Assembly (NCBI RefSeq): GCF_028595305.1
Contig: NZ_JAQQXS010000001.1
Coordinates: 186,001 to 250,000 of the forward strand
DNA length: 64,000 bases
Direction of reading: 5' to 3'
Origin: Roseateles koreensis
Lineage (GTDB): Bacteria > Pseudomonadota > Gammaproteobacteria > Burkholderiales > Burkholderiaceae_C
The notes beneath the pieces were generated by a model that saw only the letters and a program-made list of their open reading frames with translations, had not been told where the DNA came from and made no database searches. This document shows, in pieces, positions 1 through 19,842 of the stretch; the first letter of the stretch is position 1, and each line of letters starts with the position of its first letter. A program made the translations under genes and the position numbers.

Positions 1-2319
1 AAGGCCAAGCTGCTGGTGATCGACCCGCGTTTCACGCGTTCGGCTGCCATGAGCGATTACTACGCACCGATCCGCTCGGGGTCTGACATTGCCTTTTTGG
101 GTGGGGTCATTCACTACCTGTTGTCTAACGACAAGATCCAGCACGAGTACGTCAGCAAGTACACCAACGCCAGCTTCATCATCAATGAAGGCTTTGGCTT
201 CGAAGATGGCCTGTTCTCGGGCTACGACGAAGCCAAGCGCAAGTACGACCCGGCCAGCTGGGCGTATGAGCTCGACGACAAAGGCTTTGCCAAGGTCGAT
301 GAGACCCTGCAGCATCCGCGCTGCGTGCTCAACGTGATGAAGCGCCACTACGAGCGCTACACACCTGAGGTGGTCAGCAACATCACCGGCACCCCCAAGG
401 ACAAGTTCCTCAAGTGCTGCGAGATGATCAGCGAGACGGCCAAGCCGGGCAAGGTCATGACCGTCATGTACGCCTTGGGCTGGACCCAGCACAGCTACGG
501 CGCTCAGATGATTCGCACCGGGGCCATCATGCAGCTGTTGCTGGGCAATATCGGCCTGGCGGGCGGCGGCATGAATGCGCTGCGCGGTCACTCCAACATC
601 CAGGGCCTCACCGACCTGGGTCTGCTCTCGACCTCGTTGCCGGGTTATATGACCCTGCCGCGCGAGACTGAGCAGGATCTGGAGACTTACTACAAACCGC
701 GCGCCACCAAGCCCTTGCGCCCTGGCCAGATGAGCTTCTGGCAGAACTACCCCAAGTTCTTCGTCAGCCTGCAGAAGTCCTGGTGGGGCAAGGCCGCCAC
801 CGCTGAGAACGAGTGGGCCTATCACTACCTGCCCAAATGGGATAAGGCCTACGACGTGCTGCAGGCCTTCGAGATGATGGGGCAGGGCAAGCTCAACGGT
901 TACATCTGCCAGGGCTTCAACCCGGTGGGTTCCTTCCCGAATAAGAAGAAGATCATCGCCGGGCTGTCCAAGCTCAAGTATCTGGTCATCATTGATCCGC
1001 TCAACACCGAGACGGCTGAGTTCTGGAAAAACTTCGGCGAGCACAACGACGTCAAGAGCGAAGAGATCCAGACCACGGTGTTCCGTTTCCCCAGCACCTG
1101 CTTTGCCGAGGAGGAGGGCTCCATCACCAACTCCGGCCGTTGGCTGCAGTGGCACTGGCAGGGCGCCGAGCCTCCCGGCGAAGCCAAGGGCGACCCGGAA
1201 ATCATCGCCGAGCTCTTCACCCGCATGAAGGCCGCGTACCAGAAAGAGGGCGGCGCCTTCCCGGACGCCATGCTCAACCTGACCTGGCCCTATTTGATTC
1301 CCAACGCGCCCTCAGCCGAAGAATTGGCCAAGGAAGCCAATGGCCGTGCACTGGCCGATTTGCAAGACCCCAAGGACCCCAACAAGCTCCTGGCCAAGGC
1401 TGGCGAGTTGCTGCCGGGCTTTGCTCTGCTGCGCGATGACGGCTCCACCGCCAGCGGCTGCTGGATCTTTGCGGGCAGCTGGACACAGGCGGGCAATCAA
1501 ATGGCCCGGCGCGATAACAGCGACCCCTACGGCATCGGCCAGACCCTCAACTGGGCCTGGGCGTGGCCGGCCAACCGGCGGGTGCTCTACAACGCCGCGT
1601 CCTGCGATTCGACGGGCAAGCCCTGGAATCCCAAGCGGCGCCTGATCGGTTGGAACGGTGAGCGTTGGACGGGCTCCGACATCCCTGACATCCGACCCGA
1701 TGCCAACCCAAACGACCCGGATCGCGTCAACCCCTTCATCATGACCGCCGAAGGGGTGGCCCGTTTGTTCGCGCCCACCGGCTTGGTCGACGGTCCCTTG
1801 CCGGAGCACTACGAGCCCTTCGAGTCGCCCCTGCCCAACAACCCCATGCACCCCAAGAACGACAAGGCGCGGGCCAATCCCGCGGCACGTGTGTTCAAGG
1901 GCGATATGGAGGCTTTCGGCAAGCCCAAAGACTTCCCTTATGTGGCGACCAGCTACCGGCTGACCGAGCATTTCCACTACTGGACCAAGAACTGCGAAAG
2001 CAACGCCATCATCCAGCCGCAGCAATTCGTTGAAATCAGCGAAGAGCTCGCCAAGGAGAAGGGCATCGCTAACGGCGGTTGGGTCAAGGTCAGCAGCAAT
2101 CGCGGCTTCATCAAGGCCGTGGCGGTGGTGACCAAGCGCATTCCGGTGCTGGACGTGGCGGGGCAGAAGGTGCACACCGTCGGCCTGCCCAATCACTGGG
2201 GGTTTGTCGGTGCGGCCAAGCCCGGCTATCTGGTGAACACGCTGACCCCCTTTGTGGGCGACGCCAACACCCAGACGCCGGAGTTCAAGAGCTTCACCGT
2301 CAACATTGAGAAGGCATGA
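1..2319 (+). CDS. fdnG: Formate dehydrogenase-N/O alpha subunit (5' end outside window)
   Basis: This is the catalytic subunit of a membrane-associated respiratory formate dehydrogenase. It oxidises formate to CO2 at a bis-MGD molybdenum site and passes electrons to the beta subunit. The reading frame is open from base 1, so the N-terminus is missing, including the [4Fe-4S] cluster and the expected selenocysteine. About 772 residues remain. They match the E. coli FdnG/FdoG type almost throughout: an IDPRFTRSAAMSDYY start, GWTQHSYGAQ, GGGMNALRGHSNIQGLTD, TEHFHYWTKNCESNA and the ending TPFVGDANTQTPEFKS. It heads an fdnGHI operon followed by fdhE, selA, selB and selC. That context strongly suggests that the missing part carries an in-frame UGA for selenocysteine, but this cannot be seen here. 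Confidence 0.96.
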   Translation, partial: KAKLLVIDPRFTRSAAMSDYYAPIRSGSDIAFLGGVIHYLLSNDKIQHEYVSKYTNASFIINEGFGFEDGLFSGYDEAKRKYDPASWAYELDDKGFAKVDETLQHPRCVLNVMKRHYERYTPEVVSNITGTPKDKFLKCCEMISETAKPGKVMTVMYALGWTQHSYGAQMIRTGAIMQLLLGNIGLAGGGMNALRGHSNIQGLTDLGLLSTSLPGYMTLPRETEQDLETYYKPRATKPLRPGQMSFWQNYPKFFVSLQKSWWGKAATAENEWAYHYLPKWDKAYDVLQAFEMMGQGKLNGYICQGFNPVGSFPNKKKIIAGLSKLKYLVIIDPLNTETAEFWKNFGEHNDVKSEEIQTTVFRFPSTCFAEEEGSITNSGRWLQWHWQGAEPPGEAKGDPEIIAELFTRMKAAYQKEGGAFPDAMLNLTWPYLIPNAPSAEELAKEANGRALADLQDPKDPNKLLAKAGELLPGFALLRDDGSTASGCWIFAGSWTQAGNQMARRDNSDPYGIGQTLNWAWAWPANRRVLYNAASCDSTGKPWNPKRRLIGWNGERWTGSDIPDIRPDANPNDPDRVNPFIMTAEGVARLFAPTGLVDGPLPEHYEPFESPLPNNPMHPKNDKARANPAARVFKGDMEAFGKPKDFPYVATSYRLTEHFHYWTKNCESNAIIQPQQFVEISEELAKEKGIANGGWVKVSSNRGFIKAVAVVTKRIPVLDVAGQKVHTVGLPNHWGFVGAAKPGYLVNTLTPFVGDANTQTPEFKSFTVNIEKA

Positions 2320-2329
2320 GGTAACGGCT

Positions 2330-2410
2330 ATGAGCCCCCACGTTCACATTCGTTCACTGCCCCCCGAGGAGGCGCAGCCCTCCCTTGGGACGGCCCGGCG
2401 GGAGGTCTGA
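2330..2410 (+). other. Possible 26-codon leader ORF between fdnG and fdnH
   Basis: An ATG at 2330 opens a 26-codon frame that ends with a TGA at 2408-2410, one base before the fdnH ATG at 2412. A GAGG sequence lies about 9 bases upstream and overlaps the fdnG stop. The encoded peptide ([20 protein letters not shown] and six more residues) resembles no family I know. The proline- and glycine-rich core looks like the conserved intergenic repeats common in Comamonadaceae, so it may be a repeat rather than a gene. If translated, its stop would place ribosomes right at the fdnH ribosome binding site. Confidence 0.3.
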
Positions 2411-2411
2411 T

Positions 2412-3293
2412 ATGTCGTCACTTCAATCCCTGGACATCGCCAAGCGCTCAGCCACCACCACGCCGAGCCCGCAAGCGCGCAAGACCATCGAGGTCGCCAA
2501 GCTCATTGACGTGTCCTCCTGCATCGGCTGCAAAGCCTGTCAGGTGGCCTGCATGCAGTGGAACGATCTGCGCGACGAGGTGGGTGAGAACCACGGCACC
2601 TACGACAACCCCCGCGACCTCTCAGCCCAATCCTGGACGGTGATGCGTTACGCTGAGGTGGAGGTTGAGGCCAACAAGCTGGAGTGGTTGATCCGCAAAG
2701 ACGGCTGTATGCACTGCGAGGACCCGGGTTGCCTGAAAAGCTGCCCGGCGCCCGGTGCCATCATCAAGTACGCCAACGGTATCGTCGACTTCATCTCCGA
2801 GCATTGCGTGGGCTGCGGTAACTGTGTCACCGGTTGCCCCTTCGATGTGCCGCGCATCTCCAAGGCCGACAACAAGGCCTACAAATGCTCGTTGTGCTCC
2901 GACCGTGTCGGCGTGGGCCTGGAGCCGGCCTGCGTCAAAAGCTGCCCCACCGGCGCCATCCATTTCGGCGCCAAGGAAGACATGCTGGACTACGGCGCCG
3001 AGCGGGTGGCTGATTTGAATGAGCGGGGCTACAAACAGGCTGCCGTCTACAACCCCGAGGGCGTGGGCGGCACCCATGTGATGTATGTGCTGCAGCACGG
3101 CGACAAGCCTGAGCTGTATTCGGGCTTGCCCGCCAATCCCCGCATCAGCCCGCTGGTGTCTTTGTGGAAGGGCTTGGCCAAGCCACTCGCCGTGGCTGCC
3201 ATGGCCGGAGCGGTGCTGGCCGGCTTCTTCCACTACATCAAGGTGGGTCCGATTGAGGTCAAGGACGACGCGACTGAGGACGAAAGGAGCTGA
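2412..3293 (+). CDS. fdnH: Formate dehydrogenase beta (iron-sulfur) subunit
   Basis: This is the electron-transfer subunit carrying four [4Fe-4S] clusters from the catalytic subunit to the membrane cytochrome. The 293-residue protein has four cysteine groups: [11 protein letters not shown] at residues 37-47, then [24 protein letters not shown], and CSLC with a later CVKSC. A single C-terminal membrane helix ([18 protein letters not shown]) anchors it, as in E. coli FdnH/FdoH. An upstream ATG in the same frame at 2385 is possible. I chose 2412 because GGAGGT at 2401-2406 is correctly spaced from it and the upstream part is repeat-like sequence. It overlaps the start of fdnI. Confidence 0.96.
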
Positions 3294-3934
3294 TGATGAA
3301 AACCTCAACACCTCAACGCGGATTCATCCAGCGCTACTCAGACAGTGACCGCATCAACCATTGGGTGATTGCCCTCCTGTTCATTCTGGCGGGGTTGTCG
3401 GGGCTGGCCTTCTTTCACCCCAGCTTGTTCTTTTTGAGCAATCTGGTGGGTGGCGGTGTCTGGGCGCGCATTCTTCACCCCTTCCTGGGCGTGGCGATGT
3501 TCTTGTCCTTTCTGGGGCTGTTCTTCAAGCTGTGGCGTGAGAACGTCTTGAATGTCGCTGACGTCGAATGGCAACGGCACAGCATCGACATGCTCAGCGG
3601 CGACAAGAGCAAGATGCCGCCGGTTGGCAAATACAACGCCGGCCAGAAGGGCGTGTTCTGGCTCATGTCGGTGTGCCTGCTGGTGCTGCTCACGACCGGC
3701 GTTATGTTCTGGCAGCCCTGGTTTGCAGGCAGCTTCCCGATCATCTTGCGCCGCGTGGCCGTGCTGCTGCACGCGGCCAGCGCCGTGGCGCTGATTTTGG
3801 GTGTCATCATGCATGTGTATGCGGCCATCTGGGTCAAGGGCACAGTCCGTGCCATGACCCGTGGCACGGTGAGCGAAGCCTGGGCCAAGCAAAACCATGC
3901 GCTGTGGCACAAGGAAATGACCAAGGGAAAATAA
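3293..3934 (+). CDS. fdnI: Formate dehydrogenase gamma subunit, cytochrome b556
   Basis: This integral membrane di-haem cytochrome b takes electrons from the beta subunit and reduces quinone. The 213-residue protein has about four transmembrane segments. Candidate haem-ligand histidines lie in INHWVIALLF, ILHPFLGVAMF, VLLHAASAVAL and VIMHVYAAIW, the pattern of the FdnI/FdoI family. The ATG at 3293 overlaps the fdnH stop by one base and is followed at once by a second ATG (3296); AGGAG lies just upstream. It is the last structural gene of the fdnGHI operon, and a strong terminator follows. Confidence 0.95.
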   Translation: MMKTSTPQRGFIQRYSDSDRINHWVIALLFILAGLSGLAFFHPSLFFLSNLVGGGVWARILHPFLGVAMFLSFLGLFFKLWRENVLNVADVEWQRHSIDMLSGDKSKMPPVGKYNAGQKGVFWLMSVCLLVLLTTGVMFWQPWFAGSFPIILRRVAVLLHAASAVALILGVIMHVYAAIWVKGTVRAMTRGTVSEAWAKQNHALWHKEMTKGK

Positions 3935-4056: not shown

Positions 4057-5139
4057 ATGACTGTGACCCAAGCCGCGAAGTTGATGTCCCCGGAAGAAAT
4101 CGCGGTGCGTGCCGGTGAGCAAATTCCTTTTTTGCTCTATCCAGAACCCGGCGTTTTTGCCGAGCGTGCGCTGCGTTTGCGGCAACTCGCGCAAGGCCAT
4201 GCCATGGCAGACTATCTGCTGTTCGCCGCCGAACTGGCGCAAGCCCAGCATGAGCAATTCAAGCGCCCGGCCCACCTTGCCTTGCCGAGTGCAGCGCAGA
4301 TCGAAGCCGCCGCGAATGTGGGCCAAGCCTTGTTGAAGGCCGACAACTGGCCGCTGGACCCCCTTTGGCGGGACGGCTTGCGCAGCCTCATGCAAACATT
4401 GGCAACCCGCCTGCCCCAAGGCGCCGCGCGGCATGCCGTGCAGGCCTTGGCTCAGGCGCCCGATGAAACCCTGGATCAACAAGCGCAGCGCTTGCTCAGC
4501 GGTGTCATGCTGGGGCTGGATCTGGCCACAGCGCCCCTGATTGCCGCGGCCCTGCAGCTGCATTGGGTGCGCCTCGTGACGCAGTTGCAGGCGCAATTCG
4601 AGCAAGCGCAGTCGGTGCAGAAGTCGGTGCAGATCAACAGTTCAGTGCTGGCGCCGTTCGGGCGTATTGATGACCCGCTGGTGTGCCCGTGCTGCGCGTC
4701 CCGACCGGTCGCCAGCATCACGCGCATTGGGGCGGATGGCGCGGGCTTTCGCTACCTGTCATGCAGCCTGTGCGCCACGCAGTGGCACTACGTTCGCATC
4801 AAATGCACGCATTGCCAAAGCACCAAAGGCATCAGCTTTCAGAGCCTGTTGGCGCAAGACGATGAGCAGCCCAGTGGCTCCGAAGCGGTTCAGGTTGAGT
4901 GCTGCGAGCCTTGTGGGCATTACCTCAAGATTGTGCATATGGAGAAAGACCAGCAGGTCGAACCGCATGCCGACGATCTTGCCTCCCTGACGCTGGATCT
5001 GCTCGTCTCCGAGACAGGGTTGATCCGCCACGGCGTCAACCTGATGTTGCTGTTCGGCGAATCCAACGAACCCGGCGAACCCGTCGAATTTGCCGATATC
5101 GACGTTACCGACCCGCCACCTGATCCCAAGGTCCACTGA
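4057..5139 (+). CDS. fdhE: Formate dehydrogenase accessory protein FdhE
   Basis: FdhE is a cytoplasmic, rubredoxin-like iron-binding protein needed to mature the membrane formate dehydrogenases; it binds the catalytic subunit. The 360-residue length is somewhat longer than the E. coli protein (about 309). The C-terminal half has the expected cysteine groups: CPCC at residues 210-213, CSLC at 236-239, CTHC at 250-253, and CCEPC at 282-286. The longer N-terminal region is mostly helical and alanine-rich. The gene lies just after the fdnGHI terminator, and its TGA overlaps the selA start (TGATG), so the two are probably translationally coupled. Confidence 0.93.
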   Translation: MTVTQAAKLMSPEEIAVRAGEQIPFLLYPEPGVFAERALRLRQLAQGHAMADYLLFAAELAQAQHEQFKRPAHLALPSAAQIEAAANVGQALLKADNWPLDPLWRDGLRSLMQTLATRLPQGAARHAVQALAQAPDETLDQQAQRLLSGVMLGLDLATAPLIAAALQLHWVRLVTQLQAQFEQAQSVQKSVQINSSVLAPFGRIDDPLVCPCCASRPVASITRIGADGAGFRYLSCSLCATQWHYVRIKCTHCQSTKGISFQSLLAQDDEQPSGSEAVQVECCEPCGHYLKIVHMEKDQQVEPHADDLASLTLDLLVSETGLIRHGVNLMLLFGESNEPGEPVEFADIDVTDPPPDPKVH

Positions 5140-6584
5140 TGAATACGCCCGAAGCATCCATGGTTCATGGTCTGAAGGCGGGGCCCAAAGACCTCCCGGC
5201 GCTGGACCGTTTGCTCAAGCAAGTGCCTGAGCTGCTGAGTCGTCACGGCCATCAATTCGTGGCGGGTGTGGCGCGCTCGCTGCTCGATGATTTGCGCAGC
5301 CGTGCCCTGGCCGGCACGTTGGCACTGGCCGAGTTGCAGCCGCCCGTGCTGGCGCAGCGCCTGAGCGAGTGCTGCGCAGAGCGCCTGGCGCCGCGCATGC
5401 GGGCCGTCATCAACCTTACCGGCACGGTCTTGCACACCAACTTGGGCCGAGCCCTCTTGGCCGATGCGGCCTTGACCCATGTGATGGCCATGATGGCCGG
5501 GCCGAATAACCTTGAATTTGATCTGACGACGGGCGGGCGCGGTGACCGCGACAGCATGGTTGAAGAACTGCTGTGCGAGATCACCGGTGCCGAGGCCGCC
5601 ACGGTGGTCAATAACAACGCCGCCGCCGTGTTGCTGTCGATCGCCGCCTTGGCCGGCGGGCGTGAGGTCATCGTCTCGCGTGGTGAGTTGGTCGAAATCG
5701 GCGGCGCTTTTCGCATGCCCGATGTCATGGCCGCCGCAGGCGCCCGCCTCGTGGAAGTGGGCACGACCAACCGCACCCACCCGGCCGACTACGAGCGCGC
5801 CATCAATGCGGGCACCGCCATGCTGATGAAGGTGCACACCAGCAATTACGCCATCCAGGGCTTCACGTCCGCCGTGGATGAAGCCACGCTGGCCCCCATC
5901 GCCCATGCCAAGGGCCTGCCTCTGGTCACCGATCTGGGCAGCGGGTCATTGGTCGATCTGGCGCAATGGGGCTTGCCGCGCGAGCCCCTGCCGCAGGAAA
6001 TGCTCAAAGCCGGTTGCGATGTCGTCACCTTCAGCGGCGACAAACTGCTGGGCGGCCCGCAGGCCGGCCTGATCGTCGGGAGTAAGGCGCAGATTCAACG
6101 CATTCGCAAATTCCCGATGAAGCGGGCGCTGCGCATGTCCAAGTTGCCGCTGGCGGCGCTGGAGGCCACGCTGCGCTTGTATTTGCGACCCGAGCGGCTC
6201 ACCCGCGATCTGCCCACGCTGCGCTTGTTGACCCGGCCGCTGGCCGATATCCAGCGCTTGGCGGGCGAGATGCGGGTCCCCATGGCTGAAGCCCTTAGCC
6301 CGCGCTATCGCGTGCAGGTGCAGGCCATGCAGGGGCAGATTGGCTCGGGCTCGCTCCCGGTTGCGAGCTTGCCGTCATGCGGCTTGGTGGTCACGCCAAT
6401 TTTGAGCGGTAAAAAAGGACTCGGCCAAGCGCTTGACGAACTTGCCAGGGCCTTGCGTGGCCTGCCTGTTCCCGTGCTGGGCCGCATCCACGAAGACCAG
6501 CTTTGGCTGGACCTGCGTTGCCTGGAGCGGGCCGCGGATCTGCTCACGCAACTGCCGGGGCTCAGCCAAGCACTGCGCGGCTGA
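5139..6584 (+). CDS. selA: L-seryl-tRNA(Sec) selenium transferase
   Basis: SelA is a PLP enzyme that converts seryl-tRNA(Sec) to selenocysteyl-tRNA(Sec) using selenophosphate. The 481-residue protein matches the family length. It contains the motifs INLTGTVLHTNLGRALL, NNNAAAVLL, the aspartate stretch PLVTDLGSGSL, and the probable PLP lysine in FSGDKLLGGPQAG (Lys302). It starts at an ATG overlapping the fdhE stop. selB and selC lie 3-5 kb downstream, separated by three unrelated-looking genes. The selenophosphate synthetase gene selD is not in this window. Confidence 0.97.
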   Translation: MNTPEASMVHGLKAGPKDLPALDRLLKQVPELLSRHGHQFVAGVARSLLDDLRSRALAGTLALAELQPPVLAQRLSECCAERLAPRMRAVINLTGTVLHTNLGRALLADAALTHVMAMMAGPNNLEFDLTTGGRGDRDSMVEELLCEITGAEAATVVNNNAAAVLLSIAALAGGREVIVSRGELVEIGGAFRMPDVMAAAGARLVEVGTTNRTHPADYERAINAGTAMLMKVHTSNYAIQGFTSAVDEATLAPIAHAKGLPLVTDLGSGSLVDLAQWGLPREPLPQEMLKAGCDVVTFSGDKLLGGPQAGLIVGSKAQIQRIRKFPMKRALRMSKLPLAALEATLRLYLRPERLTRDLPTLRLLTRPLADIQRLAGEMRVPMAEALSPRYRVQVQAMQGQIGSGSLPVASLPSCGLVVTPILSGKKGLGQALDELARALRGLPVPVLGRIHEDQLWLDLRCLERAADLLTQLPGLSQALRG

Positions 6585-6624: not shown

Positions 6625-7767
6625 ATGGGAACGAGTCAACAAGCCTTGGCGCCGAATCTGGCTGCGGACCTGGAGCGCATCTGCGCAGACATCATCGCCC
6701 CGCATGCGCTAGAGACGGATCGTCAAGCCCGCTTTCCACGCGCTGCGGTGACGGCTTTGGCGCAGGCCGGTCTCTTGGGGCTGGTCTCCGCACGGGAGTT
6801 GGGCGGGCAGGGCGCCGGTATGGCCCAGGCCAGCCAGATGTTGCAGCGCATCGCGCAAGACTGTCCGTCCACAGCCATGGTGATGTGCATGCATTTCTGC
6901 GCCACCGCCTTGCTGGAGCAACAGGGGCCGCGGGCCACGCGCGAGGCTATCGCCCAAGGGCGGCATCTGAGCACCCTGGCATTTTCTGAAGCCGGTTCAC
7001 GCAGCCATTTCTGGGCGCCCACCGGCACGGCGCGTAGCGAGGGCGCGGGCGTGCGCCTGGATGCGAACAAAAGCTGGGTCACTTCGGCCGGTGAGGCCGA
7101 CAGTTATGTTTGGTCCAGCAAGCCGCTGAGCGCCGAGGGTGCCAGCAGCCTGTGGTTGGTGGATGCGCGCGCGACTGGCCTGCAAGTGCAGGGCAGCTTT
7201 GATGGCCTGGGCCTGCGCGGCAATGCCTCCAGCCCGGTGCTCGCGCAGGGCGTGCCCGTCACCGCAGAGCAACTGCTGGGTGAAGACGGCAAGGGCTTCG
7301 ACGCCATGATGAGTACCGTGCTGCCCTGGTTTAGCCTGCTCAACGCCTCCTGCAGCATCGGTTTGATGGAAGGCGTGTTGGCGCGCGCCTGCCAGCATGT
7401 GGGCCAGACCCGTCATCAGCATCTGGACAGCAGCCTGGCCGACCTGCCCACGGTGCGCGCATATCTGGCGCGAGCGCGTATCCGCACCGATATGTGCCGC
7501 TGCCTGTTGGATGATGGTCTGAACGCCATCGCCGAGGGCCGCGCCGACGCCATGCTGCGCGTGCTGGAGATCAAGGCCGCCGCGGGCGAGAGCGCGCTGG
7601 AGGTCAGCGACTTGGCCATGCGTGTGTGTGGCGGTGCCGCCTTCCGTAAAGAGGCCGGTATCGAGCGCCTGTTCCGCGACGCCCGTGCCGCCCATGTGAT
7701 GGCACCCACCTCCGATGTTTTGTACGACTTCATCGGCAAGGCCATCACCGGTCTGCCGCTGTTTTAA
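6625..7767 (+). CDS. Acyl-CoA dehydrogenase-like flavoprotein in the sel locus
   Basis: The 380-residue protein has the full acyl-CoA dehydrogenase fold order: an N-terminal helical domain, a middle beta domain (LSTLAFSEAGSRSHFWAP region, LGLRGNASSPV), and a C-terminal helical domain with VCGGAAFRKEAGIERLFRDA. In true dehydrogenases a catalytic Glu often follows the RDA motif in an EGT context. Here the segment reads RDARAAHVMAPTSDVLYDF, closer to the flavin monooxygenases of the superfamily (DszC/SfnB type), so an oxygenase or desulfurase-like reaction is possible. The ATG at 6625 follows GGAGGACTGACG; an earlier in-frame start lies inside selA. It begins a tightly spaced run with the next two genes and selB. 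The substrate is unknown. Confidence 0.75.
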   Translation: MGTSQQALAPNLAADLERICADIIAPHALETDRQARFPRAAVTALAQAGLLGLVSARELGGQGAGMAQASQMLQRIAQDCPSTAMVMCMHFCATALLEQQGPRATREAIAQGRHLSTLAFSEAGSRSHFWAPTGTARSEGAGVRLDANKSWVTSAGEADSYVWSSKPLSAEGASSLWLVDARATGLQVQGSFDGLGLRGNASSPVLAQGVPVTAEQLLGEDGKGFDAMMSTVLPWFSLLNASCSIGLMEGVLARACQHVGQTRHQHLDSSLADLPTVRAYLARARIRTDMCRCLLDDGLNAIAEGRADAMLRVLEIKAAAGESALEVSDLAMRVCGGAAFRKEAGIERLFRDARAAHVMAPTSDVLYDFIGKAITGLPLF

Positions 7768-8649
7768 ATGGTTAGCACGATGACAAACGATTCAACAAAG
7801 CCCCTGTTGATGGGCGCCGTGGCCTACGCACCCAAGGTGGTCACCATCTGGGAGGGCTTCAAGGCTTACTTCCAGGCCCAGGGTCTGCCTTTCGACTACG
7901 TGCTGTATTCCAACTACGAACGTCAGGTGGAGGCGCAGTTCGAGGGTGCCATCCAACTGGCTTGGAATTCGCCGCTGGCCTGGGCGCGCGCCCACCGCAT
8001 GGCAGCAGCGCGTGGCCTGCAGGTGGCTGCCGTGGCCATGCGTGACACCGACCGCGATCTGCAGTCCCTTATCGTCGTGCGGGAGGGCAGCGATATCCAC
8101 AACCTGCAAGACCTGCGCGGCCGCCGCCTGGGCCTGGGTGCCATCGATTCACCCCAGGCCACCTTGATCCCGCTGCAGCATCTGCGTGAACAAGGTCTGG
8201 TGAGCGGGCGCGATTTTGAAGTGCGTCGATTTGACGTGTTAGGCGGCAAACATGGCGACCATATCGGCGGCGAGCGTGAGGCTGCCATGGCGCTGTTGGC
8301 CGGCGAGGTCGATGCCTGCTGCATGATTGACGCCAACCATCTGGGCTTCAGCGCCGATGGCAGCCTGCCTGCCAACAGCACACGGGTGTTGGCGCGTACC
8401 GAGCCCTACGACCATTGCAACTTCACCACCAGCCCCGGTGCGCCACAGGCTCAGATCGAACGTTTTTGCCAGCTGCTGTTGGCCATGCGCTGGGACGATC
8501 CTGCCGTGCGTCCGTTGCTGGAATTGGAAGGCCTGCGCAAATGGCTGCCCGGGCGAACCAGCGGCTACGCCCAGCTTGAGCGTGCCGTGGATGAACAGAA
8601 CTTTTACAGCCCCCATGGCCACATCCTGCCCGCCGACTATCGATATTGA
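7768..8649 (+). CDS. PhnD-like substrate-binding-fold protein without signal peptide
   Basis: The 293-residue protein has the two-lobed periplasmic-binding fold of the PhnD (phosphate/phosphite/phosphonate-binding) type. Visible features are [68 protein letters not shown] and [13 protein letters not shown]. There is no signal peptide or lipobox, and no ABC permease or ATPase is nearby, so it is unlikely to serve a transporter in the usual way. A cytoplasmic ligand-binding or enzymatic role is more likely. The ATG follows directly on the stop of the previous gene. The 3' end overlaps the next gene by 35 bases, which supports coupled expression. Confidence 0.7.
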
Positions 8650-9820
8650 AGGCTTGGGCCTGGACCAAGGCGCTTTGCTGCTGATTCGTCAGGCCTTGGC
8701 TGGCGTGCCGGAGGAGGCCGAGTTGCGCGTGCTGGGCCAGTCGCCCGACTGGGATCTGCATCTGCGCGTCTGGTGCCGCAGCCAGGGCCATGGACTGCGC
8801 CTGGAGGCCGGCGCCGATGGCCGGCTGATTGCGGTGGTGACTCGCCATGGCCAAGCGCAGGGCCGCTGGCGTGGGGCGTTGCCGACCGGTGAGGCTGCTG
8901 CCATTCCCGCCGCCCAGGCCGATCCCGCCTGGGGCCTGGCCGCTCGTGGCGCTTTTGTGGAGGCGAGTGCGCCGCCCTTTAACTTCGCCCTGCGTCAGCG
9001 CCACCAGCTCTGGGCCGAAACGGCCGCCGAGCTCTACGCCCAAGGCGCGGCCGCGCAATGGGACCCGGCCACGGCCATTGATTGGCAGGCCCCCTTCGAG
9101 CTGGCGCCGTCGCTTGAAGCAGCGGTGGTGCAGCTGATGAGCTATCTGGTCGAAAATGAGAACGCCGCCCTGCTGGTGCCGGCCCGCCATTTGGCCCAGA
9201 TCCATCCGCATTACCGCGAGGTGATGCAGCTGCTGGCCCTGCAGTGTGCGGATGAAGCACGTCATGTTGAGGTGTTCACCCGCCGCGCCCAACTGCGCGG
9301 CGGTGCGCCCGTCTTGTCCACGGCTGGCGCGCAAGCCTCTTTGCAAAGCTTGTTCGAGGCGTCGGATTTTTCCAGTGCCAGCTTTCTTCTCGCCGTGCTG
9401 GGCGAAGGCACTTTCGTTAACCTGTTGAATTTTCTGCATGCCTATGGCCCCGATCCGGTGACGCGCCAGATCGCCCGCCTGGCCGCCATCGACGAGGCTC
9501 GTCATGTGGCCTTCGGCATGGCCCATTTGGCCTATCGCCTTGGGGTGGAGCCCAGCTACCAGTCGCAGCTCCGCAATGCCATCGAGACACGTTTCGATGC
9601 GCTGGCCAGCAGCGCCGGCCTGAACGAAGAAGTCTTTGACGCCTTGCAACTCCTGGCCGCCGGTGAATGCTCGGTAGGCGCGTTGGCCCTTGGCCATGCC
9701 AGGGTGCAGCAACTCAAACGCGAGATGCTGGATGGCCGCCGCGCCCGCCTGCTGCGCCTGGGCTTCGAGCGCACGGAGGCCGAGCGCTTGGCATCCATGC
9801 ACACCCGCAACTTCATGTGA
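8615..9820 (+). CDS. TusA-like domain fused to ferritin-like di-iron protein
   Basis: The 401-residue protein appears to have two parts. Residues 8-80 ([20 protein letters not shown], then a stretch ending near [17 protein letters not shown]) resemble the TusA/SirA fold: a GL-x-L turn, a long helix, then alternating strands. The TusA catalytic Cys in its usual GLxCP position is replaced (GLGLD). Residues about 165-390 form a ferritin-like bundle with paired di-iron ligands: Glu in [13 protein letters not shown], Glu in VLGEGTF and IDEARH. The di-iron set looks complete. The start is chosen at ATG 8615, inside the end of the upstream gene, because earlier codons are that gene's shadow. It lies 10 bases before selB. 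The function is unknown; the sel context suggests selenium or sulfur chemistry. Confidence 0.65.
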
Positions 9821-9830
9821 GGACGCACTC

Positions 9831-11795
9831 TTGATTATCGGCACCGCAGGCCATATCGACCATGGCAAGACCACCCTGGTGCGCGCGCTCACCGGGGTCG
9901 ACACCGATCGCCTGCCCGAAGAAAAGAAGCGTGGCATCAGCATCGAGCTGGGCTATGCCTTCATGGACGACGGCGCGGGCGGCAAGCTGGGCTTTATCGA
10001 CGTGCCGGGGCATGAGCGGCTGGTTCATACGATGTTGGCCGGTGCCACTGGCATTGACCATGCGCTCTTGCTGGTGGCTGCCGACGACGGCGTGATGCCG
10101 CAAACACGCGAGCATCTGGCGGTGTTGTCGCTGTTAGGCCTTCGCAGCGCCACGGTGGTGATCACCAAATGCGACCGGGCCGACGCAGCGCGTGTGCTCG
10201 GGCTCAAGGCGGAGATGTTTGAACTGCTGGCCGGTACTGGTCTGGACGCCTCGCCCATGTTCGAGGTGGCTGCGCACAGCGGTGTGGGTCTCGACGCGCT
10301 GCGCCAACATTTGCAGGCGCTGGCGCGAGAAGGGCGTGGCGGGCAGGCTCACCACGTGACCCAAGGCTTCCGCTTGGCGGTAGACCGGGTGTTTTCGCTG
10401 GACGGCGTGGGCACGGTGGCGACGGGCAGCATCCATGCGGGCCAAGTCAGCGAGGGTGATGAATTGTTGCTGGTACCGCCAGCACCAGGCCAGTCGCCGC
10501 GGCCTGCCCGGGTGCGCAGCCTGCATGCGCAGAACCAGAGCGTGCGGCAGGCGCATGCAGGTCAACGCTGCGCGCTGGGATTGGTCGGCGTAGATCGGGC
10601 CGAGGTGGCGCGCGGCCAATGCTGGGTGGCGCCCGAGATTGCCTTTTGCACTCAGCGGCTGGATGTGCAATTGCGCCTGTGGCCGGGCGAAGCCAAGCCC
10701 TTGCGCAGCGGCAGCAGCGTGCATGTTCACCTGGGTTCCGCCACCTTGATGGGCACCGTTGCGGTGTTGGAAGCCGCGCTCAAAGACAGCCTTGCACCGG
10801 GCGCGCAGGCCCTGGTGCAGCTCGTGTTGCACCAGCCAGTCGCTGCTTGGGCGGGGGACCGTGTGGTGCTGCGCGATGCGTCGGCCAGCCGCACGATGGC
10901 GGGCGGCCGGGTGCTCGATCCCGTGGCCCCGGCGCGTTATCGGCGCACACCGGAGCGCCTGGCGGAACTTGCTGCGCTGGCCCTGGACACGCCTCAACAG
11001 CGCCTGCATGCGCTGTTGAATGCCGCGCCGCTGGGCTTGGACCTTGCGCAATGGGCGACGGTGCAAGGGCTGTCTTCCGCCGGTAGACAAGACGTGACCC
11101 TGCCCGATGATGCTTTGAGTCAGCAAGGCGCGGCCGGCCATGAGGATTCGCATTGGATATTGGGCGCAAACCAGGCCACAGCGTTGGCCGAACACGCTTT
11201 GCAGGTGTTGGCGGTCTATCACGCTCAGCATCCCGATGAGTTGGGGCCCGACACGGCGCGCTGGCGGCGCCTCGCCGCGCCTCGGCTGGCCGAGTCTTTG
11301 TGGCGCGCCCTGCTTCAGCGGCTTCAACAGGCCGGGCGGGTGGTGTTGCGTGGCGCCGCTGCCCATTTGCCCGAGCATGGTGTGCAACTGTCTGCGGCGG
11401 ATGAGCGCGTGGCACAGAAAATCGCCCCTTTGTTGCGCTCAGGCGGCTTTGAAGGTGCCTGGGCACGTGATCTGGCGCGTGACACGCAAACGCCTGAACC
11501 GTTGATGCGCGTCAGCCTTTCGCGCCTTGCCCAAGGCGGATCACTGCACCAGGTGGTCAAAGACCTGTACTATGCGGCCCCTGCCATGGCGCAACTGGCC
11601 CAACTGGCCCGCCAAGCCATCGACGGGGAGGGGGCGATCAAAGCGGCTGCCTTTCGGGACGCTGCGGGGCTGGGACGCAAACGTGCCATTCAGATTCTTG
11701 AATACTTCGACCGCGTGGGCTTGACCCGCCGCGTGGGCGATACACACAAGCTGCGTGCCGATTCGAAGTTATTCTCGGCCGAGTGTGAAGGGTGA
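9831..11795 (+). CDS. selB: Selenocysteine-specific elongation factor SelB
   Basis: SelB is a translational GTPase that delivers selenocysteyl-tRNA(Sec) to UGA codons marked by a SECIS hairpin. The 654-residue protein has P-loop GHIDHGKT (residues 7-14), [18 protein letters not shown], the DVPGHE motif and TKCD. EF-Tu-like domains 2 and 3 follow, and C-terminal winged helices end with [20 protein letters not shown]. The start is a TTG at 9831, with GAGGA at 9819-9823. This matches the E. coli SelB N-terminus (MIIATAGHVDHGKTT), and upstream in-frame codons belong to the previous gene. It directly precedes selC, its tRNA partner. Confidence 0.96.
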
Positions 11796-11829
11796 GGGAC
11801 ATGGAGCATTTGACGTGTCCGATGCTTGT

Positions 11830-11924
11830 GGAGGGGAAACGATCCTGGTGGATCGGCCGGGCTTCAAACCCGGTGGGTGACGCCATGCGTTGCTGGGTGG
11901 GTTCGACTCCCATTCCCCTCCGCC
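11830..11924 (+). tRNA. selC: tRNA-Sec (anticodon TCA)
   Basis: This is the selenocysteine tRNA. The 8-bp acceptor stem typical of tRNA-Sec is formed by GGAGGGGA (11830-11837) and TCCCCTCC (11914-11921), with discriminator G at 11922. The anticodon arm reads CCGGG CTTCAAA CCCGG, giving anticodon TCA. A long variable arm follows (about 11872-11897). The T arm has GTGGG TTCGACT CCCAT. The 3' sequence is GCCG, so the terminal A of CCA is not encoded and must be added. It lies 34 bases after selB. At roughly 93 nt plus CCA it has the usual long tRNA-Sec size. Confidence 0.96.
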
Positions 11925-11952
11925 GTTTTTGCCTTCATTCGCCTAAAACATT

Positions 11953-12384
11953 ATGTTGATCCACGGCGTTCTCATCCCTGACGAGTTGCATTACCTGGTC
12001 GAGCATCAGACCTGGGCGCGGTGGCTGCCGGACGGCGCGGTGCGCGTGGGCATCACGGCCCTGGGCTTGAAGGCTTCCGGCGAAATTTATATGTGCCGGC
12101 CCCAACCGGTCGGCTCGGTGCTGGCGCAGGGGCGCTCGATGGCGGTGGTGGAGTTGTCCAAATCTATCGTCTCGGTGAAGACGCCTTTGTCGGGGCGGGT
12201 GCAGCGCGTGAACGAGGCGCTGGCTGAAACGCCGGAGTTGGTCTGGCGCGACCCCTATGGCGACGGTTGGTTGCTGGAGTTGGCGCCCACCCGTTTGGGC
12301 GAAGAACTGGCGGTGCTGGTGACCGGCGCTGCCGCCCAAGCGCCCATGGAGCATTACGCATGGCTGAACCAACAAGACTCGTGA
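11953..12384 (+). CDS. GcvH-like lipoyl-carrier protein next to selC
   Basis: The 143-residue protein has the GcvH/lipoyl fold. The lipoylation site is probably Lys70 in AVVELSKSIVSVKTPLSG, which aligns with the ESVKAASDVYSP region of glycine cleavage H protein. Other GcvH-like segments are VRVGITALGLKASGEIY and VWRDPYGDGWLLEL. No gcvT or gcvP is nearby, so a glycine-cleavage role is unlikely. Lipoyl proteins of this type outside glycine cleavage are known partners in sulfur oxidation (LbpA with sHdr). The gene lies 28 bases after selC and overlaps the next gene by 25 bases. The partner enzyme and lipoylation status are not shown by the sequence. Confidence 0.75.
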   Translation: MLIHGVLIPDELHYLVEHQTWARWLPDGAVRVGITALGLKASGEIYMCRPQPVGSVLAQGRSMAVVELSKSIVSVKTPLSGRVQRVNEALAETPELVWRDPYGDGWLLELAPTRLGEELAVLVTGAAAQAPMEHYAWLNQQDS

Positions 12385-12767
12385 GCCATGAGGTGACGGG
12401 CATCGCCTTGCTGCTGTGGGCGGCCGAGCCCGAGGCGCCGCATCGCCTGGTGACCCCGTTTTTTCATGCGGCGGCAGCGGCGGCCATGAATTTGCGGGTT
12501 GAAATCTACTTCACCGCTCGCTCCGTGCTCTTGCTCAAACCGGGTGTGGCTCTGGGTTTGCGTGCCTCGGACTTGTTTACAAAAACGGTGTACCACGCCA
12601 TGCAGGAGGCGGTGTCGCACGGCGCGGTTCTGCTGGCCTGCACCGATGCCCTGCACGCCCAAGGGATGCAACGCGATGGATTGATTCCTGAGTGTTCAGG
12701 CCACGGCGGGGCGGTGCAATTCATGGCGCGGGTGGCTGATCCGGCCTGGCGCAGCCTGGTTTTCTGA
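12360..12767 (+). CDS. Small DsrE-like protein
   Basis: The 135-residue protein resembles the DsrE/DsrF-like fold. A first strand (GIALLLWAAEPEAPHRLVTP) leads to a helix rich in alanine. The segment NLRVEIYFTARSVLLLKPGVA follows, then an AVLLACTDALHAQGM segment with Cys94 where these families often place a functional cysteine. A second cysteine is in PECSGHGG (Cys112). Relatives carry persulfide or relay sulfur, and a fused TusA-DsrE protein (YedF) is associated with selenium metabolism. The ATG at 12360 lies within the 3' end of the lipoyl gene; an upstream in-frame start inside that gene is possible but adds only shadow sequence. Family assignment is moderate because similarity was judged by eye. 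Confidence 0.6.
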   Translation: MAEPTRLVSHEVTGIALLLWAAEPEAPHRLVTPFFHAAAAAAMNLRVEIYFTARSVLLLKPGVALGLRASDLFTKTVYHAMQEAVSHGAVLLACTDALHAQGMQRDGLIPECSGHGGAVQFMARVADPAWRSLVF

Positions 12768-12797
12768 AGTTTTGGTTTTGAAGAGTTGGGCTCCCAC

Positions 12798-13394
12798 ATG
12801 AACGAAGCAACAGACGAGATGCCCGCACGGCAAGCGCTGCACGCGCTGCTAAGCCGTTACTCCATCGGCCCCAAACATCTGGTGGCGCCCGGCCCCAGCG
12901 AGGCGGAGTTGGCGCTGATGGTCGAGGCCGCGCTGCGTGCGCCTGACCACGGCGAGTTGATGCCATTTCGGTTCAAACGTGTGGCGGGCAATGCGCGTGC
13001 CCGCATGGCCGAGTTGTTTGCCGCCGCAGCCCGGGCAGCGGGCAAAGATGAGGCTGGCGCTGCGCTGGATGCCGAGCGTGCGCTGCGCCCTCCCGTGACG
13101 GTGGCGGTGGTGGCGCGCATCGACATGGGCCATCGGCAAGTGCCCGCGCATGAGCAATGGGCCTGTGTGGGCGGCGCGCTCAGCAACTTCTTGATGGCCG
13201 CTCATTTGCTGGGTTATGGCGGCAAGATGCTGTCGGGCGCCAAGGTGCGTGACCCTGGCATCACGGCTGCGTTTTGTGCACCCGGTGAAACCTTACTGGG
13301 CTGGATCGCCTTGGGTACGCCCACCCGCCAAGCCAGCGGCCCATCACGCAAGGGTGGCGTGGCTGCGGCGCTGCAAGACTGGACGGGCACCTGA
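12798..13394 (+). CDS. YdjA-like nitroreductase family protein
   Basis: The 198-residue protein belongs to the FMN-dependent nitroreductase family, the small YdjA type. Its hallmark is ALRAPDHGELMPFRF (residues 45-59), which corresponds to the RAPDHKSMQPWRF region of E. coli YdjA. Later segments ACVGGALSNFLMAAHLLGYGG and GETLLGWIALGTP also fit. It should form a homodimer with FMN and use NAD(P)H, but the physiological substrate of this subgroup is unknown. In E. coli ydjA sits directly upstream of selD, so its occurrence beside selC here is notable. An alternative TTG start lies at 12786. It closes the co-directional sel block; the next gene is on the other strand. Confidence 0.85.
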   Translation: MNEATDEMPARQALHALLSRYSIGPKHLVAPGPSEAELALMVEAALRAPDHGELMPFRFKRVAGNARARMAELFAAAARAAGKDEAGAALDAERALRPPVTVAVVARIDMGHRQVPAHEQWACVGGALSNFLMAAHLLGYGGKMLSGAKVRDPGITAAFCAPGETLLGWIALGTPTRQASGPSRKGGVAAALQDWTGT

Positions 13395-15985: not shown

Positions 15986-17287
15986 TCAGTTCAAGCTGTC
16001 CAGCGGCCAAACTTCGACGGTACCGCCTGGCGGAATATCGCCCTGTTCATGCGGCAACACGACCAGTCCGTTCGCCTGGCTCATGCTGGACAAAATCCCT
16101 GAGCCTTGATGGCCGGTCAGTTCAACTTGCCATTGGCCCTGCGCATTGCGTTGAACGATGCCGCGCAAGAATTCTGTGCGCCCGGGCTTTTTGCGAATGC
16201 CTTGGGGGCTGATGGCTTGCACCGTCAGCAGGGGGCGGGGTTGGGCCCCGCTCACCCGCAGCAGCGCGCCACGCACAAAGGCGTAGAAGGCCACCATCGC
16301 CGCGACAGGGTTGCCGGGCAGGCCAAACAAAAGTGCGCTGTGGCCGTCAGCTTGTACGCGGCCCACCGCCAGCGGGCGGCCCGGGCGCATGGCCAGTTGC
16401 CAGAACAGCACCTCGCCGAACTCCGCCATCACCGCCTTGGTGTGGTCTGCTTCACCGGTACTCACACCGCCGGAGCTGATCACCACGTCGGCCTGTTGAA
16501 TGGCTTGTCCAAAGGCCGCACGCAGTGCCGCCGGTTCGTCGCGTACGGCGCCCAGGTCCAGCACCTCGACGCCGAGGCGTTCCAGCAGCGCAAACAAGGT
16601 GTAGCGGTTGCTGTCGTAGATGCCGCCGGCACCTAGCGCGACGCCGGGCTCGCACAGTTCGTTGCCGGTGGAGAGGAGGGCCACGCGCAGGCGCGGCCAG
16701 ACGGCAACCTCACCCAGACCCAGCGAGGCCAGCAAGCCGATGTCGGCCGGCTGCAGTATCTTCCCGGCCTGCAGCGCGACACCGCCTTGGCGAAGGTCTT
16801 CACCCGCCAGGCGCCGGTTGTCGCCCGGCTTGATCACGCCGGGCGGGAAGGTGATGCAGTCTCCCGCGCGTTGCACCCATTCCTGCGGCACCACCGTGTC
16901 GAGGCCGGCCGGCATGACGGCGCCGGTCATGATGCGCTGGCACTGCCCGCGCACGAGAGCGGTGGCGCCGGCTTGTCCGGCAAGACTGGTGCCCGCCAAG
17001 GTCAGCGAGATCGGGTGGTCGGTTTGAAGGTCTTGGCTGGCAAAGGCGTAGCCATCCATGGCTGCGTTGTCATGGGCAGGGACATTGAGTGGCGACACCA
17101 CGTCCTCGGCCACCACCCGGCCCAGGGCTTGGCGCAGCGGCACACGGCTCGCTTGCCGGGCAGGGAGGCTCAGTTGTTGGATGAAGGCTTGGGCCTCGTC
17201 AACGCGTATCGCTTCTGAGGGCTTGGCCTTGTGGTCAGGGGTCTGTGCGCGCGCATGCGCGTGATTTGGCGTGGTGTCGTTTGTCAT
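15986..17287 (-). CDS. moeA: Molybdopterin molybdotransferase MoeA (first copy)
   Basis: MoeA inserts molybdate into adenylylated molybdopterin, giving active molybdenum cofactor. The 433-residue protein has the expected order: an N-terminal domain with VPAHDNAAMDGYAF, the domain with IMTGAVMPAGLDTVVPQE, the catalytic core with STGNEL and IYDSNRYTL, VISSGGVSTGEADHT, and FGLPGNPVAAMVAF, followed by the C-terminal beta domain. It is the last gene of a reverse-strand run moaA-mobA-GNAT-moeA. A second MoeA paralog lies at 41778-43076. The product is needed for the formate dehydrogenase encoded at the left end. Confidence 0.95.
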   Translation of the reverse strand: MTNDTTPNHAHARAQTPDHKAKPSEAIRVDEAQAFIQQLSLPARQASRVPLRQALGRVVAEDVVSPLNVPAHDNAAMDGYAFASQDLQTDHPISLTLAGTSLAGQAGATALVRGQCQRIMTGAVMPAGLDTVVPQEWVQRAGDCITFPPGVIKPGDNRRLAGEDLRQGGVALQAGKILQPADIGLLASLGLGEVAVWPRLRVALLSTGNELCEPGVALGAGGIYDSNRYTLFALLERLGVEVLDLGAVRDEPAALRAAFGQAIQQADVVISSGGVSTGEADHTKAVMAEFGEVLFWQLAMRPGRPLAVGRVQADGHSALLFGLPGNPVAAMVAFYAFVRGALLRVSGAQPRPLLTVQAISPQGIRKKPGRTEFLRGIVQRNAQGQWQVELTGHQGSGILSSMSQANGLVVLPHEQGDIPPGGTVEVWPLDSLN

Positions 17288-17306
17288 GGGGCAACATCAA
17301 AGAGGG

Positions 17307-17909
17307 TCAGGGCTGGCGCAATCGTAGGCACATCAGGTCCTTGTCCAGCACCCGGCCATCCAGCAGTTTGATGGCCCCAGGCAGGCGGCCATAACGTGTA
17401 AAACCACAGCGCTCATACAGTTTCACTGCCGCGGTGTTGCTGGACGTCACGCTCAGCGTCACCAGCTCGAGTGCGGCTTCGCCGCGCAGCAGATGCAGGG
17501 TTCTCTCTAGCAATTGGCGACCCAAGCCATGACCATGCAGGTCTTCCCGCACCATCATGCCCATGATGTGGGCGATGTGGCGAATCTTCAGCCGGGCTTC
17601 ATGTTCGCAACTGATGGCGCCCACCATGTCAGCACCTTGCCAACCGACCAGGGTGAATAAATTCGCACCGCCGTTGCCACCGCTCAAGCGGCTGCGATAG
17701 CTGTTGGCATCGCGTTGCAGTTCGGTCGCTGCGTCGGAGGTGAAGGCCTCGGGGTGGCGTGCCAACATGCCGTCGCGCAGGTCTTTGTAGGCCGCAAGGT
17801 CTTCTAGATGCAAGGGGCGAATTTGCAGGTCGATTTGCATGCGGGACAGATGCTCCGTGGCGGTCGCCCAGTCCATCAACTGTTTCGTGCTGTTCTTGCC
17901 TTCAGGCAT
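17307..17909 (-). CDS. GNAT family N-acetyltransferase
   Basis: This is an acetyl-CoA-dependent acyltransferase of the GNAT fold. The acetyl-CoA pyrophosphate loop is visible in MVREDLHGHGLGRQLLERTL, followed by a strand (LELVTLSVTSSN) and the typical NTAAVKLYERCGFTRYGR. I chose the ATG at 17909, which overlaps the mobA stop by eight bases; this gives 200 residues. A later ATG at 17840 starts at the conserved core and is also possible. The substrate is unknown. Its position between mobA and moeA suggests co-transcription with cofactor genes rather than a defined role in that pathway. Confidence 0.8.
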   Translation of the reverse strand: MPEGKNSTKQLMDWATATEHLSRMQIDLQIRPLHLEDLAAYKDLRDGMLARHPEAFTSDAATELQRDANSYRSRLSGGNGGANLFTLVGWQGADMVGAISCEHEARLKIRHIAHIMGMMVREDLHGHGLGRQLLERTLHLLRGEAALELVTLSVTSSNTAAVKLYERCGFTRYGRLPGAIKLLDGRVLDKDLMCLRLRQP

Positions 17910-19722: not shown

Positions 19723-19842
19723 GGCCTCCATTGTGCCCGCTGCGACCCGGGCTGGCGTTGCGCGCTGCACCCGGCTTGATCAAGGGCAAGGTTTCTTGCC
19801 GGACCGGGGGCGTTGGCACCCGGCTCGGGTTCAGGCTCGGTT

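Follow-up and report, generated by a model that had tools for sequence, protein, structure and literature searches.

Six protein-coding genes lie packed among selA, selB and selC in Roseateles koreensis, which raises the question of whether they form one selenium- or sulfur-handling module, as an initial annotation of this DNA proposed. The stretch analyzed here, referred to as the window, comprises 64,000 nucleotides (contig NZ_JAQQXS010000001.1, positions 186,001 to 250,000 of the forward strand). We find that the six genes are two units. Unit A consists of a gene for a GcvH-like lipoyl carrier and a gene for a DsrE-like protein, often accompanied by a nitroreductase gene. Unit B consists of genes for an acyl-CoA dehydrogenase (ACAD)-like flavoprotein, a PhnD-like protein and a fusion of a TusA-like domain to a di-iron domain. 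A single six-gene module is ruled out because the units are distributed differently. The six families had been expected to recur together around the sel genes; both units do recur beside sel genes, but among the loci fetched the whole set occurs only in the window and in two Hydrogenophaga loci. Hydrogenophaga flava is one species that carries both units. Of 30 PhnD-like loci, 2, both from Hydrogenophaga, gave matches to the GcvH-like, DsrE-like and nitroreductase genes. In three congeners (L102, L104 and L105), the GcvH-DsrE-nitroreductase genes follow selC while selA and selB are adjacent, with no unit B in between. Unit B was therefore either gained in the window or lost in these congeners.

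The layout of the locus agrees with the initial annotation in its particulars: all six genes lie where it had placed them, and domain scans support the names it gave, with DsrE and TusA below cut-off by sequence. From fdhE to the nitroreductase gene, everything is encoded on the plus strand and is almost gapless. Intervals measure 40 nt between selA and the ACAD-like gene, 0 nt between the ACAD-like and PhnD-like genes, 10 nt between the fusion gene and selB, 28 nt between the tRNA and the GcvH-like gene, and 30 nt between the DsrE-like and nitroreductase genes. The PhnD-like and fusion genes overlap by 35 nt and the GcvH-like and DsrE-like genes by 4 nt. The features are as follows; bit scores are above the model's cut-off except where a cut-off is given.

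6625..7767, plus strand: unit B gene 1, ACAD-fold flavoprotein (Pfam Acyl-CoA_dh, 70 bits)
7768..8649, plus strand: unit B gene 2, PhnD-type binding-protein fold (Phosphonate-bd, 116 bits)
8615..9820, plus strand: unit B gene 3, TusA-like/AurF-VlmB-like di-iron fusion (AurF, 36 bits)
9831..11795, plus strand: selB (TIGR00475, 456 bits; TTG start picked by eye)
11830..11924, plus strand: selC, tRNA-Sec (ARAGORN; Rfam RF01852, 80.6 bits)
11953..12384, plus strand: unit A gene 1, GcvH-like lipoyl carrier (Pfam GCV_H, 88 bits)
12381..12767, plus strand: unit A gene 2, small protein of predicted DsrE fold (DsrE, 21.8 bits, gathering cut-off 22.7; predicted model and PDB matches)
12798..13394, plus strand: unit A gene 3 (optional), YdjA-like NAD(P)H nitroreductase (Nitroreductase, 58 bits)
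5139..6584, plus strand: selA (TIGR00474, 562 bits)
4057..5139, plus strand: fdhE, formate dehydrogenase accessory protein (TIGR01562, 221 bits)
2385..3934, plus strand: beta (Fe-S) and gamma (cytochrome) subunits of formate dehydrogenase (assigned by eye; relatives keep the order)
16..2319, plus strand: FdhA (formate dehydrogenase alpha subunit), the part 3' of a probable selenocysteine codon (same order in relatives)
15986..19770, minus strand: moeA, an acetyltransferase-like gene, mobA and moaA (MoeA 524, MobA 210 and MoaA 388 bits)

The in-frame TGA of FdhA lies upstream of the window at L127:1833, where the frame reads ...NQARV*HAPTVASLAPTFGRG, and is followed on its 3' side by a stable hairpin (-20.1 kcal/mol). 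We take the identity of FdhA and the selenocysteine context of the TGA from the sequence and from the E. coli FdhA motif. The selD gene is located elsewhere in the R. koreensis genome, beside a gene for a TIGR04553 binding protein (L062:7332-8324; 391 bits, above cut-off). The arrangement in the window is not a matter of chance, because it is conserved: ACAD-like, PhnD-like and fusion genes stand together across several phyla, and in 22 of 26 loci the GcvH-DsrE pair adjoins selB.

How closely does unit A follow selB? A profile of the DsrE-like protein was searched against 299 sampled genomes of the family, and 25 loci besides the window were fetched. The protein was found in 26 of the 299 genomes, representing 16 genera. 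selB is present in 25 of these 26 carriers versus 68 of 280 sampled family genomes, a baseline sample that overlaps with the 299-genome set and differs from it in size. The 25 comprise 23 genomes from the 280-genome sample together with G985, which has selB in its locus, and G724, whose selB (a frame open to the end) was not listed at the 1e-80 limit of the family-wide selB search; the remaining carrier, G800, is represented by a small contig. In 21 of the 25 fetched loci, and also in the window, no more than ~3 kb separates the GcvH-DsrE pair from selB, and the pair usually follows selC; in L121 and L122 it is on the other strand. In three loci of one genus, the pair and selB share a contig but are 16-29 kb apart, and L126 contains a DsrE-like gene fragment with no other neighbor matched. 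The nitroreductase gene occurs in 11 of the 25 fetched loci, and searches of plasmids matched no place for the DsrE-like protein. By both co-occurrence and adjacency with selB, the GcvH-DsrE pair behaves as an accessory of the selenocysteine operon. Unit A is thus a genuine companion of selB-selC.

The GcvH-like and DsrE-like proteins have conserved active-site residues. The GcvH-like protein has a GCV_H domain and solved GcvH relatives in a structure-database comparison; it scores below both NCBIfam GcvH cut-offs (91 versus 117 bits and 70.6 versus 115.85 bits). Its lipoyl motif ExxK (E67 and K70), which includes the lipoyl-acceptor lysine, is invariant in all 26 aligned rows. The predicted model of the DsrE-like protein has a pLDDT of 95, and 6 of its best 8 PDB matches are titled DsrE/DsrF-like, YchN or DsrEFH, the other 2 being hypothetical proteins; Foldseek matches include 3mc3 (4e-7), 2qs7, 3pnx, 1jx7 and 2hy5. 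A DsrE fold is therefore supported by the model. Cys87, which we take to be the DsrE active-site position, is invariant in 26 of 26 rows, and a second Cys is found in 22 of them. The nitroreductase scores 95 bits with PRK10828, below the cut-off of 183.

Unit B has a different range. The PhnD-like protein was used as query and yielded 30 loci in public genome records, whose neighbors were assigned by tblastn; some fetched stretches are short, and contig ends truncate L046 and others. The loci are distributed among Betaproteobacteria, Caulobacteraceae, Deltaproteobacteria, Myxococcales, Acidobacteria, a Chloroflexota family and others. An ACAD-like gene was matched in 26 of the 30, the fusion (whole or part) in 26, and all three genes in 22. 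Unit B is a free-standing conserved cassette that here lies between selA and selB. Within Burkholderiales, the fusion gave five full-length matches plus weaker partial ones. Eight of 398 genomes in a phylum-wide sample were above the limit for the PhnD-like search: G000 and G133 have the cassette, G522 and G537 have a distant ACAD-PhnD pair, and G049, G171, G668 and G076 have a PhnD-like match only (E ~1e-26 to 1e-28); a second place in G000, the TIGR04553 protein, matches at the same level. In plasmids, three PhnD-like places were found and the fusion protein matched nowhere. Two loci show unusual fusion genes: in L069 (G084) the match covers the TusA-like part only and contains an internal stop, and in L033 it falls into two overlapping pieces. 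Near the PhnD-like and fusion genes of Caulobacteraceae lies a gene for a luciferase-like monooxygenase in L023 and one for a CoA-transferase in L028.

What is unit B related to? A distant ACAD-PhnD pair adjoins a radical SAM gene in the genomes of L063 and L064 and on the actinobacterial plasmids L074 and L075. The radical SAM proteins of L063 and L074 pass the model for Rv1681, and the match in L075 is fragmentary. The L063 protein has a weakly TusA-like N-terminus, and the N-termini of the di-iron fusion and the radical SAM protein match each other (hhalign probability 89%). Judged from these profile matches, we identify unit B as a predicted variant of the Rv1679-Rv1680-Rv1681 set in which a di-iron domain takes the place of radical SAM. 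We read this, on modest evidence for the shared domain, as one scaffold that may carry an exchangeable catalytic part, either oxygen-dependent or radical. In the distant set, L063:1920-10181 and L064, from genomes with no selD match, also contain glycosyltransferase genes and a nucleoside-phosphorylase-like gene nearby; one glycosyltransferase (L063:5121-5825) scores above the cut-off of TIGR04282, "arsenosugar biosynthesis."

The ACAD-like protein reaches 414 bits with its nearest NCBIfam model, Rv1679_FadE16 (cut-off 600), and solved ACADs align with it at E values down to 6e-53, which places it in the ACAD fold. At the position of the catalytic Glu (YEGT), the 26 aligned rows have Ala (21), Gly (3) or Ser (2). 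At the other known catalytic site, of the isovaleryl type, a hand alignment gives Phe in 26 of 26. An ordinary acyl-CoA dehydrogenase is unlikely, since the catalytic Glu is lost in every row. The PhnD-like protein scores 250 bits with its nearest NCBIfam model, SBP_like_Rv1680 (cut-off 400), and 52 bits with TIGR04553 (cut-off 250); PtxB and others are among its PDB relatives, and it contains the PhnD fold domain. K23 and the motifs WNS, KHGDH and DHC are invariant in 28 of 28 rows. No hydrophobic N-terminus or evident signal peptide was seen by eye, with no signal predictor run, and no ABC genes were present among the genes read from fdhE to the nitroreductase gene. A generic ABC binding protein is thus an unlikely description of this protein.

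The N-terminus of the third protein of unit B scores 15.1 and 18.5 bits for TusA (cut-off 28.6), and hhalign gives 68% probability against the genome's own TusA. In the predicted model, the N-terminal part has the element order beta-alpha-beta-alpha-beta-beta, which is that of TusA. The cysteine of the CPxP motif is catalytic in TusA. None of 24 aligned rows of the fusion has a Cys in this stretch, so an ordinary TusA carrier is unlikely. In PMC5322559, CPxP is given as the TusA motif. The initial annotation had grouped TusA, DsrE and lipoyl carriers as the classic trio of sulfur relays; that grouping fails here, because the TusA-like domain lacks the CPxP Cys and is part of the cassette rather than of the GcvH-DsrE pair. 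The model of the fusion has a pLDDT of 87, and its Foldseek matches include aldehyde-deformylating oxygenase, R2lox and the azoxy synthase VlmB. E182, E214, H217, E264 and H297 are conserved in 24 of 24 rows and E294 in 23 of 24. These residues are likely the ligands of a di-iron site.

The slot between selA and selB is used by other genes as well. A gene cluster for a sulfide-dehydrogenase-like flavoprotein occupies it in six loci (L110, L113, L115, L118, L120 and L123), of which only L110 was scanned and the other five were assigned by clustering. The L110 flavoprotein (L110:4031-5404) scores 82 bits with FCSD_central and 98 bits, below cut-off, with NF049943. A transglutaminase-like cluster is found in the slot of five loci (L103, L109, L110, L111 and L120; PF01841, 77 bits in L103, the one scanned). 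In L115 and L116 the slot houses an ABC transporter, assigned because its parts group by clustering with the TIGR04553 protein of L062 and the other transporter genes next to selD in R. koreensis. The flavoprotein and transporter genes are of a chalcogen type, and their presence in this slot counts in favor of a selenium link. A TIGR04553-type binding protein with ABC-type genes also follows the DsrE-like gene in L124, as assigned by clustering. The TIGR04553-type protein and ABC-type genes beside selD or within sel clusters are a candidate selenium importer, an assignment for which only the L062 protein was scored.

What might the two units do? We tentatively favor a reading in which two independent accessory units sit on an fdh-fdhE-selA-selB-selC operon, with unit A relaying chalcogen, in this case selenium, to SelD and unit B serving as an oxidative add-on for supply or protection. 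A selenium relay to SelD is the simplest reading of unit A because its parts are those of sulfur relays. In such a relay, the DsrE-like cysteine would hold selenium as a perselenide, from which the lipoyl dithiol of the GcvH-like carrier would take over and reduce the selenium. The optional nitroreductase, acting as an NAD(P)H flavin reductase, would provide electrons, and selenide would reach SelD without free release. Unit B would depend on oxygen and move as a cassette from one genome position to another; by oxidizing a selenium (or sulfur) compound that the cytosolic PhnD-fold protein binds, it would feed or protect the selenium supply. The analysis establishes gene order, conservation, the linkage of unit A to selB, the co-occurrence of unit B with selD, conserved active-site residues and the predicted DsrE-like and di-iron folds; selenium as the element, each chemical step, the partners and the way in which unit B moved are our inference.

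The alternative that survives best concerns unit B, which may not be specific to selenium. It would then belong to an oxidative or radical pathway of the Rv1679-Rv1680-Rv1681 family and stand near sel genes because accessory genes gather there. We regard this as possible, if somewhat doubtful. selA, selB or selD lies in the fetched stretch at 7 of the 30 loci, in several separate arrangements that speak against it. Unit B occupies the selA-selB interior in Hydrogenophaga (two loci), as in the window; it follows selB-selC in Ideonella (two loci) and Hylemonella, precedes selD in Xenophilus, and lies between selAB and selD in Methyloversatilis. The alternative also fits poorly with the distribution of selD. 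Of 34 distinct genomes that carry the PhnD-like gene, counted after removal of two duplicates and of the cassette-free G039, 31 have selD above cut-off. Among the other three, the metagenome-assembled G303 and G316 gave no match, and G323 gave one below cut-off. In PMC5322559, selD is reported for 38.3% of sequenced bacteria; among cassette records not labeled Betaproteobacteria, 13 of 15 have selD (binomial 2e-4 against that published value, not matched for taxonomy).

The PhnD-like tree bears on the same question. Over its 36 rows, the sel-linked label requires 5 changes (gains or losses), 4 of them forced by well-supported branches, and 4 of 500 shuffles gave as low a count. Linkage to sel genes is therefore partly inherited, since the label is more clustered than in most shuffles. 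A 31-row clade (98/96) holds all sel-linked rows, and the radical SAM rows fall outside it, which again argues against this alternative. On a plasmid of Miltoncostaea oceani, selDAB and an ACAD-PhnD pair are ~6 kb apart, and other genes take the place of the fusion. That stretch (L073:3524-17847) encodes selB-selA-selD, DoxX, the ACAD-like and PhnD-like proteins, a DUF2515 protein and a radical SAM/SPASM protein; Rv1681-like radical SAM and TIGR04282/TIGR04283-like glycosyltransferase matches in it are all below cut-off.

Several observations weigh against a selenium role for unit B. No sel gene was found in the fetched stretch, some stretches being short, at 23 of the 30 loci. selB is above cut-off in 21 of the 34 genomes, barely so in G300, leaving 13 without it. 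The Caulobacteraceae loci L023, L026, L028 and L038 have the PhnD-like and fusion genes with no ACAD-like match in the fetched stretch, and the TusA-like assignment itself is weak (below the Pfam cut-off, with hhalign probabilities of 68-89%). selD is present in 215 of 300 Burkholderiales genomes, and full-length fusion matches there numbered only five, so its co-occurrence with unit B is uninformative within that order. G522 and G537, which carry the distant radical SAM relatives and a TIGR04282-type glycosyltransferase nearby, have no selD match, so selenium is not the whole story for the wider family. The transglutaminase-like cluster in the selA-selB slot likewise fits a gathering place for accessory genes. 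A selenouridine synthase as the explanation of the cassette was ruled out; the enzyme occurs in 22 of 37 searched genomes. The link of unit B to selenium is, on balance, suggestive. The initial annotation's link to selenium therefore stands for the GcvH-DsrE pair with selB and for a cassette beside selAB or selD in several lineages, but not for six genes acting as one module.

For unit A, the main rival is a sulfur relay for the clustered formate dehydrogenase, directed toward the molybdenum cofactor; the tie to sel genes would then exist only because that enzyme is a selenoprotein. This is the main rival because the genes of that enzyme share the cluster. FdhD in E. coli passes sulfur toward the molybdenum cofactor. 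At every family locus with unit A beside selB, fdh genes or fdhE/selA are in the same cluster, so linkage alone cannot separate selenium delivery from sulfur delivery to formate dehydrogenase. The moeA-mobA-moaA genes downstream in the window would also suit such a role, and GcvH-like and DsrE-like proteins are sulfur carriers in known systems. We nevertheless consider the sulfur relay unlikely: the pair adjoins selB-selC rather than fdh and its carriers almost all have selB, and a general sulfuration helper would be expected also with cysteine-type formate dehydrogenases. Of the 68 family genomes with selB, 23 have unit A, which is therefore not required for selenocysteine; this counts against the proposed selenium relay.

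That the nitroreductase, DsrE-like and ACAD-like genes guard against selenite or selenide toxicity instead of supplying selenium is quite improbable: the nitroreductase and the sulfide-dehydrogenase-like flavoproteins near sel genes would fit redox defense, but many carriers without selB would then be expected, and a DsrE-like gene without detected selB was seen only in G800.

The proposed selenium relay with an oxidative add-on could be extended. It is tempting to speculate that the lipoyl/DsrE relay of selenide to SelD is joined by an interchangeable cassette that makes or breaks a selenium compound, the oxygen-dependent and radical versions carrying out the same chemistry; of the readings considered here, we hold this to be the least probable. 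If it were true, the swap of di-iron and radical SAM parts behind a TusA-like domain would point to a single reaction carried out by two routes and would open a way into the Rv1679-Rv1681 genes; the literature search found no paper that names two of Rv1679, Rv1680 and Rv1681. No description of unit A or unit B was found among the literature matches listed, and both are, as far as searched, undescribed. The GcvH-DsrE pair that tracks selB is a concrete, deletable candidate for the hand-over of selenium to SelD, a poorly understood step.

YedF (TIGR03527), the TusA-DsrE fusion of SelD organisms, is described as a selenium candidate in PMC5322559, and it resembles unit A in that a DsrE-type domain is tied to selenium genes. 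However, the DsrE of the window forms a protein of its own, 128 residues long, whose partner is a lipoyl carrier, and it has one invariant Cys, whereas a CGxC motif is given for YedF. The GcvH-like protein shares its fold family and lipoyl lysine with GcvH of the glycine-cleavage system, but it falls short of the GcvH models and is encoded beside selC. The sHdr system of sulfur oxidation (TusA, DsrE and the lipoate-binding LbpA) offers a likeness in its DsrE-like carrier beside a GcvH-like lipoyl protein; in contrast, there are no Hdr-like genes among those read in the window cluster, and the window pair is linked to selA-selB-selC.

The cassette can be compared in the same way. TIGR04553, a putative selenate ABC transporter binding protein, belongs with the PhnD-like protein to the PhnD superfamily, but the latter scores far below that model, has no evident signal peptide and has no ABC genes in the window sel cluster. 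AurF, VlmB, aldehyde-deformylating oxygenase and R2lox have the di-iron helical bundle with conserved likely ligands that is predicted for the window fusion, whereas the window protein is joined to a TusA-like domain and shows 14-20% identity in the listed Foldseek matches. The Rv1679-Rv1680-Rv1681 set (NF049984, NF049985 and NF049973) differs in that its third protein contains radical SAM, whereas that of the window ends in a di-iron domain, and the window ACAD-like and PhnD-like proteins are below the model cut-offs. The two sets nevertheless place an ACAD-like protein before a PhnD-fold protein in the same order, and in both the third protein is weakly TusA-like at its N-terminus.

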